From Polyangiaceae bacterium (GTDB lineage: Bacteria; Myxococcota_A; Polyangia; Polyangiales; Polyangiaceae): a DNA stretch of 45,119 nucleotides. The notes under the pieces are model-generated. The model did not search any database. It saw only the letters and a list, made by a program, of their open reading frames with translations, and was not told the origin of the DNA. The first letter of the stretch is position 1; each line of letters starts with the position of its first letter. A program made the position numbers and the translations under genes. The DNA lies in the NCBI GenBank assembly GCA_029261965.1, contig JAJDAH010000345.1, positions 1 to 45,119 of the forward strand, in the 5' to 3' direction. Positions 41,688 through 45,119 of this stretch are shown here, in pieces.

Positions 41688-42161
41688 ATGAGCCTCGTCG
41701 CTCGAAACGTGGTGCCCGCCGCCGTGCTCTTCGCATCCCTCGCGTTTTTTGCGTCGTGCGGCAGCTCGGAGTTCGTCGTCGTCGACGCCGGCGCTGGCGG
41801 CACTGGCGGCAGCAGCGACGCCTCTTCGACCGGCGGCACCGGTGGGCAGTCCGGATCGGGCGGTACCGGGGCTTCCGGGGGATCCGGCGGCACCGGCGGC
41901 TCGCCGGGCTGCGTGGGGCTCGCCGCCTCTTGCGCGGTCGACGGCGTGCCGTGTTGCGGCGACTTCGTCTGCACCGACGGCACGTGTGAAACCCCCTTCT
42001 GCGGCGGAGAAGGGCTCGGGTGCTCTAGGGACCTTCCGTGCTGCTCGCAGTTTTTCTGCGAAGGAAACGCGTGCCGCTGCGGCGAAAACAACGATTCTTG
42101 CGACGAAGAGACACCGTGCTGCGCGGGGCTCTCGTGCCGCGCCGGTCGTTGCTCCCAGTAG
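41688..42161 (+). CDS. Cys-rich small lipoprotein with GTGG linker
   Basis: A 157-residue lipoprotein: a signal peptide ending in LAFFASC (Cys24), a Gly/Thr/Ser linker (about 37-73, GGTGGSSDASSTGGTGGQSG style), then a compact module with about 20 Cys. The Cys pattern repeats three times as C-x(5-6)-C-x(5)-CC-x(3)-F/SC-x(4)-C: DGVPCCGDFVCTDGTC, RDLPCCSQFFCEGNAC and EETPCCAGLSCRAGRC. It looks like a disulphide-knotted surface domain of Dickkopf or knottin type, inferred only by pattern. Expected outside the cytoplasm. The ATG has no good Shine-Dalgarno sequence. The stop is 2 nt before the likely start of the next gene. Confidence 0.8.
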   Translation: MSLVARNVVPAAVLFASLAFFASCGSSEFVVVDAGAGGTGGSSDASSTGGTGGQSGSGGTGASGGSGGTGGSPGCVGLAASCAVDGVPCCGDFVCTDGTCETPFCGGEGLGCSRDLPCCSQFFCEGNACRCGENNDSCDEETPCCAGLSCRAGRCSQ

Positions 42162-42163
42162 CC

Positions 42164-42733
42164 GTGGACGGCGAGCGCTATCTACGGTTCCGCTGCACGC
42201 AGTGCGGCGATTGCTGCCGCCAACACCGGGCACCCATCACCGACGCCGACGTACGCCGCCTCGCCGAGCACACCGGTCGCCCCCCCCAGAGCTTTCTCGA
42301 ATGGCTCGGCCCTGACGACATCGACATGACGGGCGAGCCCGAATCGTTCGTGACCCTGCGCGAAGGACGACGACTCATGACGCTCGCGTTCGAACGCGAA
42401 GGGTGCGTCTTCTTGCAAAACGACACATGCAGCGTGCACTCGGCGCGCCCCTCGGGCTGTCGAGCCTTCCCTTTCATGCCCGAGCTGGACGATCAGAAGA
42501 AGATCCGCCGCCTGTCGCTCCTTCACGAGAGCACGTGTCGCTACGAGCTCGACGGTTCCGTCGAACCGAGCGCCGTCGTGGATTCCTACACCACGCAGAC
42601 CACCGAGCTCGTCGCTTATGTGCAACGAGTCGGCGTGTGGAACCGTCGTCAGCGCCTGAGAAGGCATCTCAGACGCCTACCCGAGTCACAACAGGCGTAC
42701 CTGAGGTTCTTGGGTCTCGAAAGGACCGCCTGA
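42164..42733 (+). CDS. YkgJ-family Cys-cluster (Fe/Zn-binding) protein
   Basis: A 189-residue protein from the GTG at 42164. The N-terminal RFRCTQCGDCC and central CSVHSARPSGCRAFPF give the eight-residue Cys set (CxxCxxCC...C...RPxxCRxFPF) of the YkgJ/UPF0153 family, thought to bind iron or zinc. Family function is not established. The rest is helical and basic, ending LPESQQAYLRFLGLERTA. The frame is open further upstream, but that part lies antiparallel-free over the lipoprotein and looks non-native (poly-Arg). It starts 2 nt after the lipoprotein stop. A strong hairpin covers its stop codon. Confidence 0.85.
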   Translation: MDGERYLRFRCTQCGDCCRQHRAPITDADVRRLAEHTGRPPQSFLEWLGPDDIDMTGEPESFVTLREGRRLMTLAFEREGCVFLQNDTCSVHSARPSGCRAFPFMPELDDQKKIRRLSLLHESTCRYELDGSVEPSAVVDSYTTQTTELVAYVQRVGVWNRRQRLRRHLRRLPESQQAYLRFLGLERTA

Positions 42734-42851: not shown

Positions 42852-45119
42852 ATGCGGCCAGCGACCATGGAGATACCGATGGGCCGACTCGTTTCTTGTC
42901 TGGCACTCCTTGTGGGCGCCACGGCGTGCGGGCAGCAGGAAGCACCGCCGCGGGTCGAATCGGTCACCGCGAGCCTTTCTGCAGAATTTGGGGTCGACGA
43001 CCCGGCCTACGAGGCGTCCTGGGGCGTGCAGCGGGGCACGGCCTCGGCGTCGAACGGCACGAATACCTTGGTGGTGTGGGTCGATGAACGCGTCGCCTGG
43101 GTAGCGCCGCACCTAGCACTGAGCGCCGAGACCCGCGGGTTCATCGTCGCTGCTCGAGTCTCCCCGACGGGTCAGATTCTGGATCCGGGCGGGATCCCGC
43201 TAGCCGAGGTCGATTTCGACTTCTCCCAGTCGGTCCGTGTCGGGTCCGACGGCGCGGGTTGGCTCGTCGCCTGGGCCGACGATGGCGCGGCCGAGGCTCG
43301 CCGCGTAGCGGCCAACGGCTCGCTGCTTGATTCGAGACCCATCGCGTTGGCCAGCGCGTCGGTCGTCACCATCGACGACGTCGAGTTCGACGGAACCAAC
43401 TATTGGACCGTATGGACGCACGACGGCGACCGCAACGACATTCTAGCCAAGCGCGTCGCTCCCACTGGCGCGGCGGTAGACCTGACTCCTATCGCGATTT
43501 CCAACGTCGCTCAGCATCAGCAAGACGCGGAAATGGCTTGCACCGCCTCCCAGTGTTTGATCGCGTGGAGCGACACTCGCGAAGGGGCGAGCGCCCAGCG
43601 GATTTTCGCGACTCGCGTCGACTCCTCCGGCGGCGTTCTCGATGCTCCACCAATTCGCACCAACGCAGCGACGGGCCAGCAGGTGAAGCCTTCGGTGGCG
43701 AGCGACGGCACGGACTTTCTCATCGTCTGGGCCGATCAGTCGGTCGTCAACTCTCGAGCTCAAGCGGCGATTGTCGACGCAGCAGGCACACCGACGACGC
43801 CTGCGGCCATCGACCTGGCCCCCGCGTCAGATGATCCTAGCGTCGCGTTCGGGAGTGGGCAGTACGTCGTGGCTCTCACGGGACCGGAAGGGCTGGGAGA
43901 ACAGGGCATCTACGGCGTTCGCGTGACACCCACCGGCACGGTGCTCGACGGCAGCCCCGTAGTTTTGGTTACAGGCGAGGACCCCCACTCTGCATTCGGT
44001 CCGAGCCTCGTGGCCGAGGGAGCGAACTTTCGCGTTTCGTACGATTTCGCAGCCCACGGCGCCAACTCCGCTCAAGAGATGGACGTCCGATCCCGTAGCT
44101 TCACTTCCGCTCTGCTCACGACTGGACCGCATGTTTACGTCAGCAACGAACCTTCCGGTCAGCACGTCCCCGCGATCGGCTTCAACGGCAGCTCCTACCT
44201 CGTGGCCTGGATCGATTCGAGACCCGGAATCAATCGCCTCGGCGGGTTCCGCGCCGCTCGCGTGGACCAAAATTTCGCCAAGCTCGACCCGAACGGAATT
44301 CAGCTGACCAACGAGTCGTTCGCATTGTTCGACGATGTTTTCTCCAGTCCCAACTATTTCTACGAAGAAACACGAATAGAGATCGCTTCGGACGGCACGG
44401 ACTTCGCCGTTCTCGCGGTACCCGACGGGGCGTGGCGCATTTCGGGATCCGGTACCCTACTCGGCTCGTTGAGCATTCCTGGCACGAGCGCTGGCCTCGA
44501 CTTCGACGGGACCAACTACTTCGTGGTGTGGCAGAGCACGCTCTTCGACGCTGGCGATATCATGGGCTCACGCATGGCGCCGGACGGTACATTGCTCGAT
44601 CCGGCGGGCATCACGATCTCAGCCAACGTCGATCTCCAGATGCAACCCGCCGTCGTGTGGAGCGGCTCGCAGCACTTCGTCGTGTGGGTGGACGATCTGG
44701 TCGGCGTACGGGGCGCCCGGGTGGCCCAAGACGGGACCGTGCTCGATCCGGCCGGGATCACCCTCGGCAACAACGGCCAGTTCGTCGACGTCGCCTCGGA
44801 CGGGTCCGGATTCATGGTCGTGTGGAACGACGGTTTTGGGGGCTCGGCACAATCGGCTGCCGTAAACGCCGCCGGGGTGGCCAGCCCCGCCAGCGTGACC
44901 GTGTCGACCGGAGCTCGATTTCGGCCAAGCGTTGCGTGGGCGGGAACGAGCTATTGGAGCGCGACCCAAGTGGGCACGTCGATCACTCTGCTGCCCGGTT
45001 TTGGAGAAGCGCTCGAACCCGGTCGAGTCTTCGTCGAACCAGCACTATTGGCGGGACCCGCGGGTCAACTGGTGCTCGCGTACTCCAGTCTCGTCACGAC
45101 GCCTCCGGAGTTCGGTCGG
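42852..45119 (+). CDS. Repeat-built secreted lipoprotein, 3'-truncated by the window edge
   Basis: An uninterrupted frame of 756 codons running to the last base, with no stop. Possible starts are 42852 (AAGGGGG 6 nt before), 42867 and 42879 (GGAG about 7 nt before). The last gives a signal peptide MGRLVSCLALLVGATAC with lipid-anchor Cys. After that, about 12 copies of a roughly 50-residue unit follow. The most regular part of the unit is a SDGT-x-(F/Y)-(L/V)-V-(V/A)-W-x-D strand pair, for example VGSDGAGWLVAWADD, ASDGTDFLIVWADQ, FNGSSYLVAWIDSR and SDGSGFMVVWND. Between them lie RV-x(3)-G-x-(L/V)LDPAGI segments. This suggests beta-propeller or beta-solenoid blades. Probably surface-exposed or released. 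Function unknown. Confidence 0.8.
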   Translation, partial: MRPATMEIPMGRLVSCLALLVGATACGQQEAPPRVESVTASLSAEFGVDDPAYEASWGVQRGTASASNGTNTLVVWVDERVAWVAPHLALSAETRGFIVAARVSPTGQILDPGGIPLAEVDFDFSQSVRVGSDGAGWLVAWADDGAAEARRVAANGSLLDSRPIALASASVVTIDDVEFDGTNYWTVWTHDGDRNDILAKRVAPTGAAVDLTPIAISNVAQHQQDAEMACTASQCLIAWSDTREGASAQRIFATRVDSSGGVLDAPPIRTNAATGQQVKPSVASDGTDFLIVWADQSVVNSRAQAAIVDAAGTPTTPAAIDLAPASDDPSVAFGSGQYVVALTGPEGLGEQGIYGVRVTPTGTVLDGSPVVLVTGEDPHSAFGPSLVAEGANFRVSYDFAAHGANSAQEMDVRSRSFTSALLTTGPHVYVSNEPSGQHVPAIGFNGSSYLVAWIDSRPGINRLGGFRAARVDQNFAKLDPNGIQLTNESFALFDDVFSSPNYFYEETRIEIASDGTDFAVLAVPDGAWRISGSGTLLGSLSIPGTSAGLDFDGTNYFVVWQSTLFDAGDIMGSRMAPDGTLLDPAGITISANVDLQMQPAVVWSGSQHFVVWVDDLVGVRGARVAQDGTVLDPAGITLGNNGQFVDVASDGSGFMVVWNDGFGGSAQSAAVNAAGVASPASVTVSTGARFRPSVAWAGTSYWSATQVGTSITLLPGFGEALEPGRVFVEPALLAGPAGQLVLAYSSLVTTPPEFGR

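Follow-up and report, generated by a model that had tools for sequence, protein, structure and literature searches.

A truncated gene at the end of a contig

We analyzed a 45,119-base stretch of Polyangiaceae bacterium DNA (the window), which is a complete contig (C274), and focused on a gene at its right end that would encode an exported, repeat-containing lipoprotein. On the forward strand, an open reading frame from 42852 to 45119 runs for 756 codons without a stop and leaves the window at its right end, just as an earlier sequence-based reading of this DNA (the original prediction) had it. As C274 terminates at 45119, the open end of the frame is an assembly break, and the 3' end of the gene is missing. 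The final 23 bases of C274 have no second occurrence in the rest of the genome assembly, so no overlapping contig was found. The G+C content of the frame by codon position (0.66/0.53/0.75) is as expected of a coding frame. We call the encoded protein P0001 and its two paralogs in the same genome P0002 (contig C233) and P0003 (contig C58); other loci carry L numbers.

The likelier start codon is the ATG at 42879 rather than position 42852, judging from a Shine-Dalgarno-like GGAG (42869 to 42872) six bases before it and from the start of P0002, which aligns nearby. Positions 42879 to 42929 would then encode a signal peptide with a probable lipobox, ATA-Cys, in which the cysteine (Cys26) is the codon at 42927 to 42929. 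By eye, ATAC is a plausible but atypical lipobox, acceptable under the lipobox rule; P0002 has LAGC at the comparable place. The structural model of P0001 places a helix at residues 10 to 25, with low confidence there. The mature protein would thus begin at Cys26, and its initial designation as a lipoprotein is probably correct.

Tandem repeats of about 50 residues

To count the repeats, we used a hidden Markov model (HMM) trained on 66 units from relatives in other genomes, with none from the source genome. It detected 11 units in P0001 at an independent E value of ≤0.01, 10 of them below 1e-7, while only 7 of 200 shuffled versions of P0001 gave any unit, with a best score of 5.6 bits. An HMM built with all sequences listed 12 stretches in P0001, of which 10 scored above 5. 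The units are about 50 residues long and follow the consensus Q..PAVAFDGTNYLVVWxDxR....DIYGARV...GxVLDxxGIxIS. The repeats first described here are therefore real, but their count of about 12 needs correction: the profiles give 11 or 12, and the predicted structure gives 14 blades, the last of them cut. With the turn between the first two strands (A-B turn) of each of the 14 blades picked by eye, successive turns lie 195, 141, 156, 159, 150, 162, 168, 207, 114, 156, 138, 141, and 120 nucleotides apart. Nine of these 13 steps fall at 138 to 168 nucleotides, with outliers at 114, 120, 195, and 207, in keeping with the reported spacing of mostly 140 to 170 nucleotides with a few irregular gaps.

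In blade 4, a pair of cysteines (MACTASQC, 43533 to 43556) flanks the A-B turn and is possibly a turn-stabilizing disulfide. P0002 has a comparable pair (IACAASQC), and L129 and L123 each carry one in a single blade (IACxxxxxC).

A predicted tandem of two seven-bladed propellers

An AlphaFold2 model of P0001, built with a 17-row alignment, is all-beta, with a mean predicted local distance difference test score (pLDDT) of 71 and a predicted template modeling score of 0.64; pLDDT falls below 50 at residues 489 to 544, 682 to 689, 702 to 732, and 747 to 756. In VIA-align comparisons, residues 56 to 428 fit closed seven-bladed propellers, best of all CylK (Z 38.3, root mean square deviation [rmsd] 2.9 over 343 residues), followed among others by YncE (Z 29.1) and the lectins PLL2 (Z 28.1) and CV39L (Z 27.8). 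In a Foldseek search with the P0001 model, the top matches were large double propellers of the eukaryotic WD40 type, and CylK came twelfth; TM-scores by query length were low, at 0.17 to 0.43 among the matches listed. A viral structure library returned generic propellers.

The complete relative L124 gave a more confident model (pLDDT 83) with 14 blades, starting at residues 42, 93, 146, 199, 251, 304, and 356 in the first ring and at 409, 461, 514, 567, 620, 671, and 721 in the second. Its first ring aligns with CylK at Z 43.4 (rmsd 2.2 over 346 residues), with the next family at Z 30.9. By AlphaFold2 and VIA-align, the predicted fold of the first ring is a closed seven-bladed ring; the second ring rests on the strand count in the L124 model. 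These comparisons strongly predict two seven-bladed propellers in tandem, with 14 blades between them. As the first ring closes after seven blades, a single 14-bladed ring is an unlikely arrangement of the modeled strands. Between the propeller and the solenoid that had been considered for these repeats, structure prediction thus comes down on the propeller.

By comparison with L124, P0001 is predicted to contain the first 13 blades and the greater part of the 14th, whose last strand is lost to the contig end. From alignments, the domain opens with an N-terminal closing strand, EFGVDDPAY (residues 45 to 53; 42984 to 43010), carrying the family motif EF.xD. The first propeller (blades 1 to 7, residues ~56 to 428) occupies 43017 to 44135, as placed by AlphaFold2, VIA-align, and the repeat units. 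Blades 8 to 14 of the second, including an irregular blade 9, occupy 44136 to 45119 according to the repeat units and the blade comparison with L124.

Paralogs and relatives

The source genome encodes three such proteins at E ≤1e-5, on C274 (the window), C233, and C58. The two paralogs are 31 to 40% identical to P0001, and P0002 is the nearest, at 40% over nearly the whole length. A single pattern-based scan of the genome_contigs collection found 21 relative loci, which span Myxococcota, candidate division WOR-3, Stahlbacteria, Planctomycetota, Verrucomicrobiota, Ramlibacter, and others. A family profile matched 110 of 240 sampled genomes of the window's class at E ≤1e-20, and P0001 alone as query matched 14 of 59 nearer genomes, its own included, at E ≤1e-10. 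The statement that such proteins are numerous in Polyangia therefore holds across genomes, but the source genome itself shows three copies.

Exactly 13 units scoring above 5 were found in 11 of the 21 relative frames, and P0003 also has 13 detectable units. This recurrence across several phyla bears on the possibility that the repeats arose by chance or form a solenoid instead of a propeller. Blades 7, 9, and 13 of P0001 are divergent, and residues 489 to 544 and 702 to 732 are modeled at low confidence, as one might expect in that case; however, the shuffle control, the 13 units shared by relatives, and the closed-ring alignments at Z 38 to 43 leave it extremely improbable.

We also considered an origin in a mobile element and rejected it, as no relatives turned up in the collections searched: 159 stretches of viral_contigs matched but none was confirmed as a relative, and neither phages (queried with L124) nor plasmids (queried with P0001) yielded one.

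Ten relatives (L123, L129, L134, L137, L173, L175, L176, L179, L190, and L191) carry an unnamed N-terminal domain of ~200 residues before the double propeller, with the motif FDLGAIV.RVHFAFRPDG ... GVEQSW.F ... GLHF.DP.TGLG.RYGHATWIDA.G. It is absent from the window protein, and Pfam scans of four of these ten relatives left it unmatched at E ≤0.1.

The gene immediately upstream of the window frame (42140 to 42733, forward strand) encodes a CxxCxxCC (PF03692) protein by Pfam, with no functional link shown. P0002, like the window gene, follows a Ser/Thr kinase gene, and these kinases share 32% identity over 324 columns. Ser/Thr kinase domains give at least 150 matches at E ≤1e-20 across the source genome; given this abundance and the low identity, we claim no neighborhood link.

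The missing 3' part and C-terminal sorting tails

What lies past the contig edge can be approached through the paralogs. P0002 adds one strand (RLRGQLL) after the aligned edge, and its Cys-rich stretch has its first cysteine 21 residues past that edge; the protein extends 288 residues beyond the edge, Cys-rich, before it is cut by its own contig end. The Cys-rich part matches Pfam Disintegrin (E 1.1e-17), with Dicty_CTDC below its cut-off. P0003 is complete and ends in a MYXO-CTERM tail, preceded by a short Cys motif and a long stretch of Gly, Ala, and Ser; the tail scores 22 bits on TIGR03901, a model with a cut-off of 20 bits that describes a C-terminal Cys motif, a transmembrane helix, and an Arg cluster.

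We extended this comparison to 36 C-termini (35 relatives plus P0003), left from 39 closed frames after two duplicates and one doubtful frame were set aside. At E ≤0.01, 15 of the 36 matched TIGR03901 and 6 matched the type A tail of the type IX secretion system (T9SS), which was over its own cut-off in L122, L125, L126, and L132. In the source genome, at least 65 MYXO-CTERM matches were over the cut-off among the best 150 of 231 candidates, three of them only together with their neighbors, and none of 14 control genomes had a match over the cut-off. To judge from paralogs and relatives, the sequence past the edge would encode one closing strand, then a stretch rich in Cys, Gly, or both, and last a MYXO-CTERM tail.

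Since 13 blades and most of the 14th lie inside the window, we expect no additional repeat units beyond its edge. The gene is indeed cut there, as the original prediction said, but the repeats should not continue, P0002 having just one more strand. That account had treated a lack of further repeats beyond the edge as grounds for dismissing the feature; the repeats probably do end there, but this does not refute it, because 14 blades complete the double ring. Its suggestion that sorting or autotransporter domains be sought at the end is answered in part: a sorting domain is expected, given the MYXO-CTERM tail of P0003, and the scanned C-termini showed no autotransporter domain.

We looked for a continuation of the gene among pieces at other contig edges (C267, C98, C145, C304, and C447) that have Cys-rich or Gly-rich stretches and MYXO-CTERM-like tails. 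Nothing connects any of the five to the window gene, and so none was assigned to it.

Several MYXO-CTERM proteins, some of the source genome and some of the propeller family, have, by eye, an N-terminal lipobox as well: L037 (4065-6950), L069 (442-5001), L116, L170, L123, L128, L129, L176, and L184. An automated lipobox scan of the genome's MYXO-CTERM proteins often chose late start codons and was not used as a count. Going by these sequence features, such proteins may be lipid-anchored at both ends, an arrangement not mentioned in the portion of the myxosortase paper examined (PMC11980579).

Giant Cys-rich surface proteins form a separate observation. Four frames of 1304 to 2290 residues end in MYXO-CTERM (among L066 on C98, L068 on C280, L069 on C243, L063 on C267, L064, and L065). 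L063 has Disintegrin-type Pfam repeats, both L068 and L069 have DNRLRE domains, and L063 to L066 are broken inside repeats at contig ends.

A proposed surface-displayed binding head

With moderate confidence, we propose that the gene encodes an exported, surface-displayed lipoprotein in which a double seven-bladed propeller serves as a multivalent binding head, followed past the edge by a stalk and a MYXO-CTERM tail. The export signal, the identity of the repeats, the propeller fold, and the 14-blade layout are shown or strongly predicted; the part of the double propeller as a multivalent head, lectin- or adhesin-like, is put forward with less certainty. In this proposal, the protein would be exported via its signal peptide and lipid-anchored at its N-terminal cysteine, and the missing part would supply the closing strand, the Cys-rich or Gly-rich stretch, and the surface-sorting tail. 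The MYXO-CTERM route, as set out in PMC11980579, consists of Sec export, membrane insertion of the tail, a proposed lipidation of its cysteine, cleavage by myxosortase, and passage through the type II secretion system to the outer face.

Column information over 422 units, a set in which at least two proteins are represented twice, points to the side of the propeller that might hold a ligand. The A-B turn (DGTN) and the C-D turn (GxVLD, with its Gly) carry 1.4 to 3.8 bits, whereas six of the seven columns of the B-C loop (columns 21 to 27) carry 0.3 to 1.2 bits and the seventh, an Arg, 2.0 bits. As the B-C loops are less conserved than the two turns, the top face, with its variable loops, would set which ligand is held, and the opposite face (DGTN and GxVLD turns) would be the better conserved one. 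In the CylK study, the blade-connecting and internal-strand loops lie on the top face of the propeller (PMC8916777). By analogy, we read the more variable face of the repeat as the face that usually binds.

Several observations weigh against this proposal. P0001 has no NCBIfam match at E ≤1. Fourteen blades are a common layout in the sequences compared, not a law: the other 10 of the 21 relatives show 3 to 12 units, L127 and L133 being cut by contig ends. The stalk and MYXO-CTERM tail of P0001 are assigned from other proteins, its own C-terminus being beyond the contig end, and for at least 15 of the 36 C-termini neither of the two sorting models gives a match at E ≤0.01, although several of these look MYXO-CTERM-like by eye. 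Four relatives (L134, L137, L179, and L180) close without a MYXO-CTERM-like tail by eye. On the side of function, single-sequence searches of the PDB with P0001 and with the first ring of L124 do not find the lectin CV39L, and the match of a family profile (A5) to it is weak, short, and mainly one strand pair. Finally, CylK, an alkylating enzyme, stands well ahead of all other solved propellers in fold similarity (Z 43.4 versus 30.9 for the next family), and Pfam GH43 on L124 reaches 33.1 bits against a whole-protein cut-off of 32.2, with no single stretch passing.

The four relatives without a recognizable tail are what one would expect if the gene stopped just beyond the edge without stalk or tail and encoded a plain lipoprotein, and the final residues in the window do lie near the end of the fold. 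We nevertheless judge this improbable, given that P0002 continues for 288 residues before its contig ends and that P0003 ends in MYXO-CTERM.

The likeness to CylK raises the possibility of an enzyme, whose active site would lie on the top face of the propeller or inside the channel, on the pattern of CylK, lyases, or glycoside hydrolases. Both glycoside hydrolases and polysaccharide lyases are among the fold matches of P0001 and L124, and GH43 scores 25.1 bits on L121, below its cut-off. However, PDB sequence searches gave no match to CylK, P0001 has no GH43 match at E ≤1, and the window protein lacks an N-terminal domain like that of CylK, which supplies the active-site Arg105 (PMC8916777). 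Nor, outside the closing strand, was any conserved residue specific to one blade found. A 15-row alignment had 133 columns conserved at ≥75% among the 686 tested; 131 of these follow the repeat consensus, the criterion being that a quarter or more of the units share the residue at that position, and the other two are the E and D of the closing-strand motif (counted on L124). As the repeat explains 131 of the 133, the alignment makes a family-wide catalytic site unlikely, with sites in subfamilies possible, and we judge an enzymatic role for the window protein improbable.

Conservation that is almost wholly structural would suit a scaffold, a structural surface or matrix protein that holds no specific small ligand and serves as a rigid docking block for other proteins of the surface. 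An archaeal surface-layer propeller, 1l0q, is among the fold matches of P0001 (Z 27.9), and the propeller repeats of TIGR04275 match relatives. The three genome copies, by contrast, have diverged to 31 to 40% identity, more like diversification than a uniform lattice, and we judge the scaffold improbable, though slightly more credible than an enzyme.

A broader version of the binding-head proposal is one that we advance only tentatively, all of its parts being taken together. Here the proteins would be an unnamed receptor or adhesin family that sets the same two-by-seven-blade head on whichever sorting system its host lineage has: MYXO-CTERM and myxosortase in Myxococcota, and T9SS-type tails in WOR-3 and unclassified bacterial metagenome-assembled genomes. 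Many members in Myxococcota would be lipid-anchored at both ends, through the lipobox and the MYXO-CTERM cysteine, with the propellers forming a clamped loop at contact sites; such proteins would be the propeller equivalent of TraA.

Myxobacterial genomes hold many surface proteins of unknown function, and for one of them the repeats can now be read as a defined architecture whose fold, number of blades, and route of anchoring lend themselves to testing. What we describe is a widespread, little-described family, not a new kind of system. The presence of like double propellers on different sorting tails across lineages argues for surface display, independent of any one genome.

Comparison with known families

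A literature search on the double-propeller family, which covered few subscription papers, found no description of it. P0001 could not be named from Pfam or NCBIfam, as no model match was significant; its only Pfam match is to DUF3659 (PF12396), at 11.9 bits and E 0.21. L121 (74.8 bits) and L124 (41.1 bits) pass the whole-protein cut-off of 24.8 for this model through summed short stretches, no single stretch passing in either, and we set DUF3659 aside as a short-motif echo. The remaining Pfam matches on the relatives' propeller parts are below cut-off and are read as echoes of short motifs or of the fold.

Four known groups come closer. The first is TIGR04275 (beta_prop_Msarc), whose 85-bit cut-off is passed by 2 of 12 relatives scanned (L129 at 117 bits and L132 at 86.2). 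Nine more of the 12 give scores under that cut-off, and the best stretch covers roughly positions 2 to 35 of the 40 in the model; P0003 reaches 15.5 of 85 bits, and P0001 falls below membership, with no match at E ≤1. The model has 40 positions, compared with units of ~50 residues in the P0001 family. Judged by sequence, the P0001 repeat is a divergent relative of the TIGR04275 propeller repeats.

The second is the seven-bladed lectin CV39L (NF052350; PDB 6gxs), which shares the strand pair DGxxYLVxWQD and is the best PDB sequence match for family profiles A3 (E 3e-9), A5 (2e-6), and A4 (6e-7). CV39L/PLL lectins align with P0001 and L124 at Z 27.8 to 30.9, and NF052350 matches 5 of 12 relatives (E 1.4e-18 to 3.4e-8), at 33 to 67 bits against a cut-off of 350; P0001 has no match. 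CV39L is a single ring (a 376-residue chain), whereas the P0001 family has two in tandem. In these lectins, sugar sites lie between blades with a stacking tryptophan, as PMC6943638 describes. The sequence link to CV39L suggests a lectin-like function, but the negative PDB searches and the shortness of the profile match make lectin activity only a lead.

CylK (PDB 7fh6 and 7ron) has the closest solved fold, at Z 43.4 for L124 and 38.3 for P0001. It is a single-ring enzyme that gave no sequence match to the P0001 family in the PDB searches, and a calcium site is described at each of its blade junctions (PMC8916777). In CylK, an RTX-like N-terminal calcium domain bearing Arg105 is fused to the propeller; P0001 has no such fusion, as its closing strand begins 19 residues after Cys26.

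In overall plan, the nearest parallel is TraA and other MYXO-CTERM proteins, since P0002 and P0003 show a similar order of head, Cys-rich stretch or Gly-rich linker, and tail. TraA has been proposed to consist of a PA14 head, a Cys-rich stalk, and a MYXO-CTERM tail (PMC3325183). P0001 has no PA14 match at E ≤1 and P0002 no match to the TIGR04201 Cys repeat at E ≤0.1. TraA has a type I signal (PMC6626042), in contrast to the lipoprotein-like N-terminus of P0001, and its head is PA14 where the window family has a double propeller. If the double propeller does bind glycans or other cells, it would be a second class of recognition head beside the PA14 of TraA.

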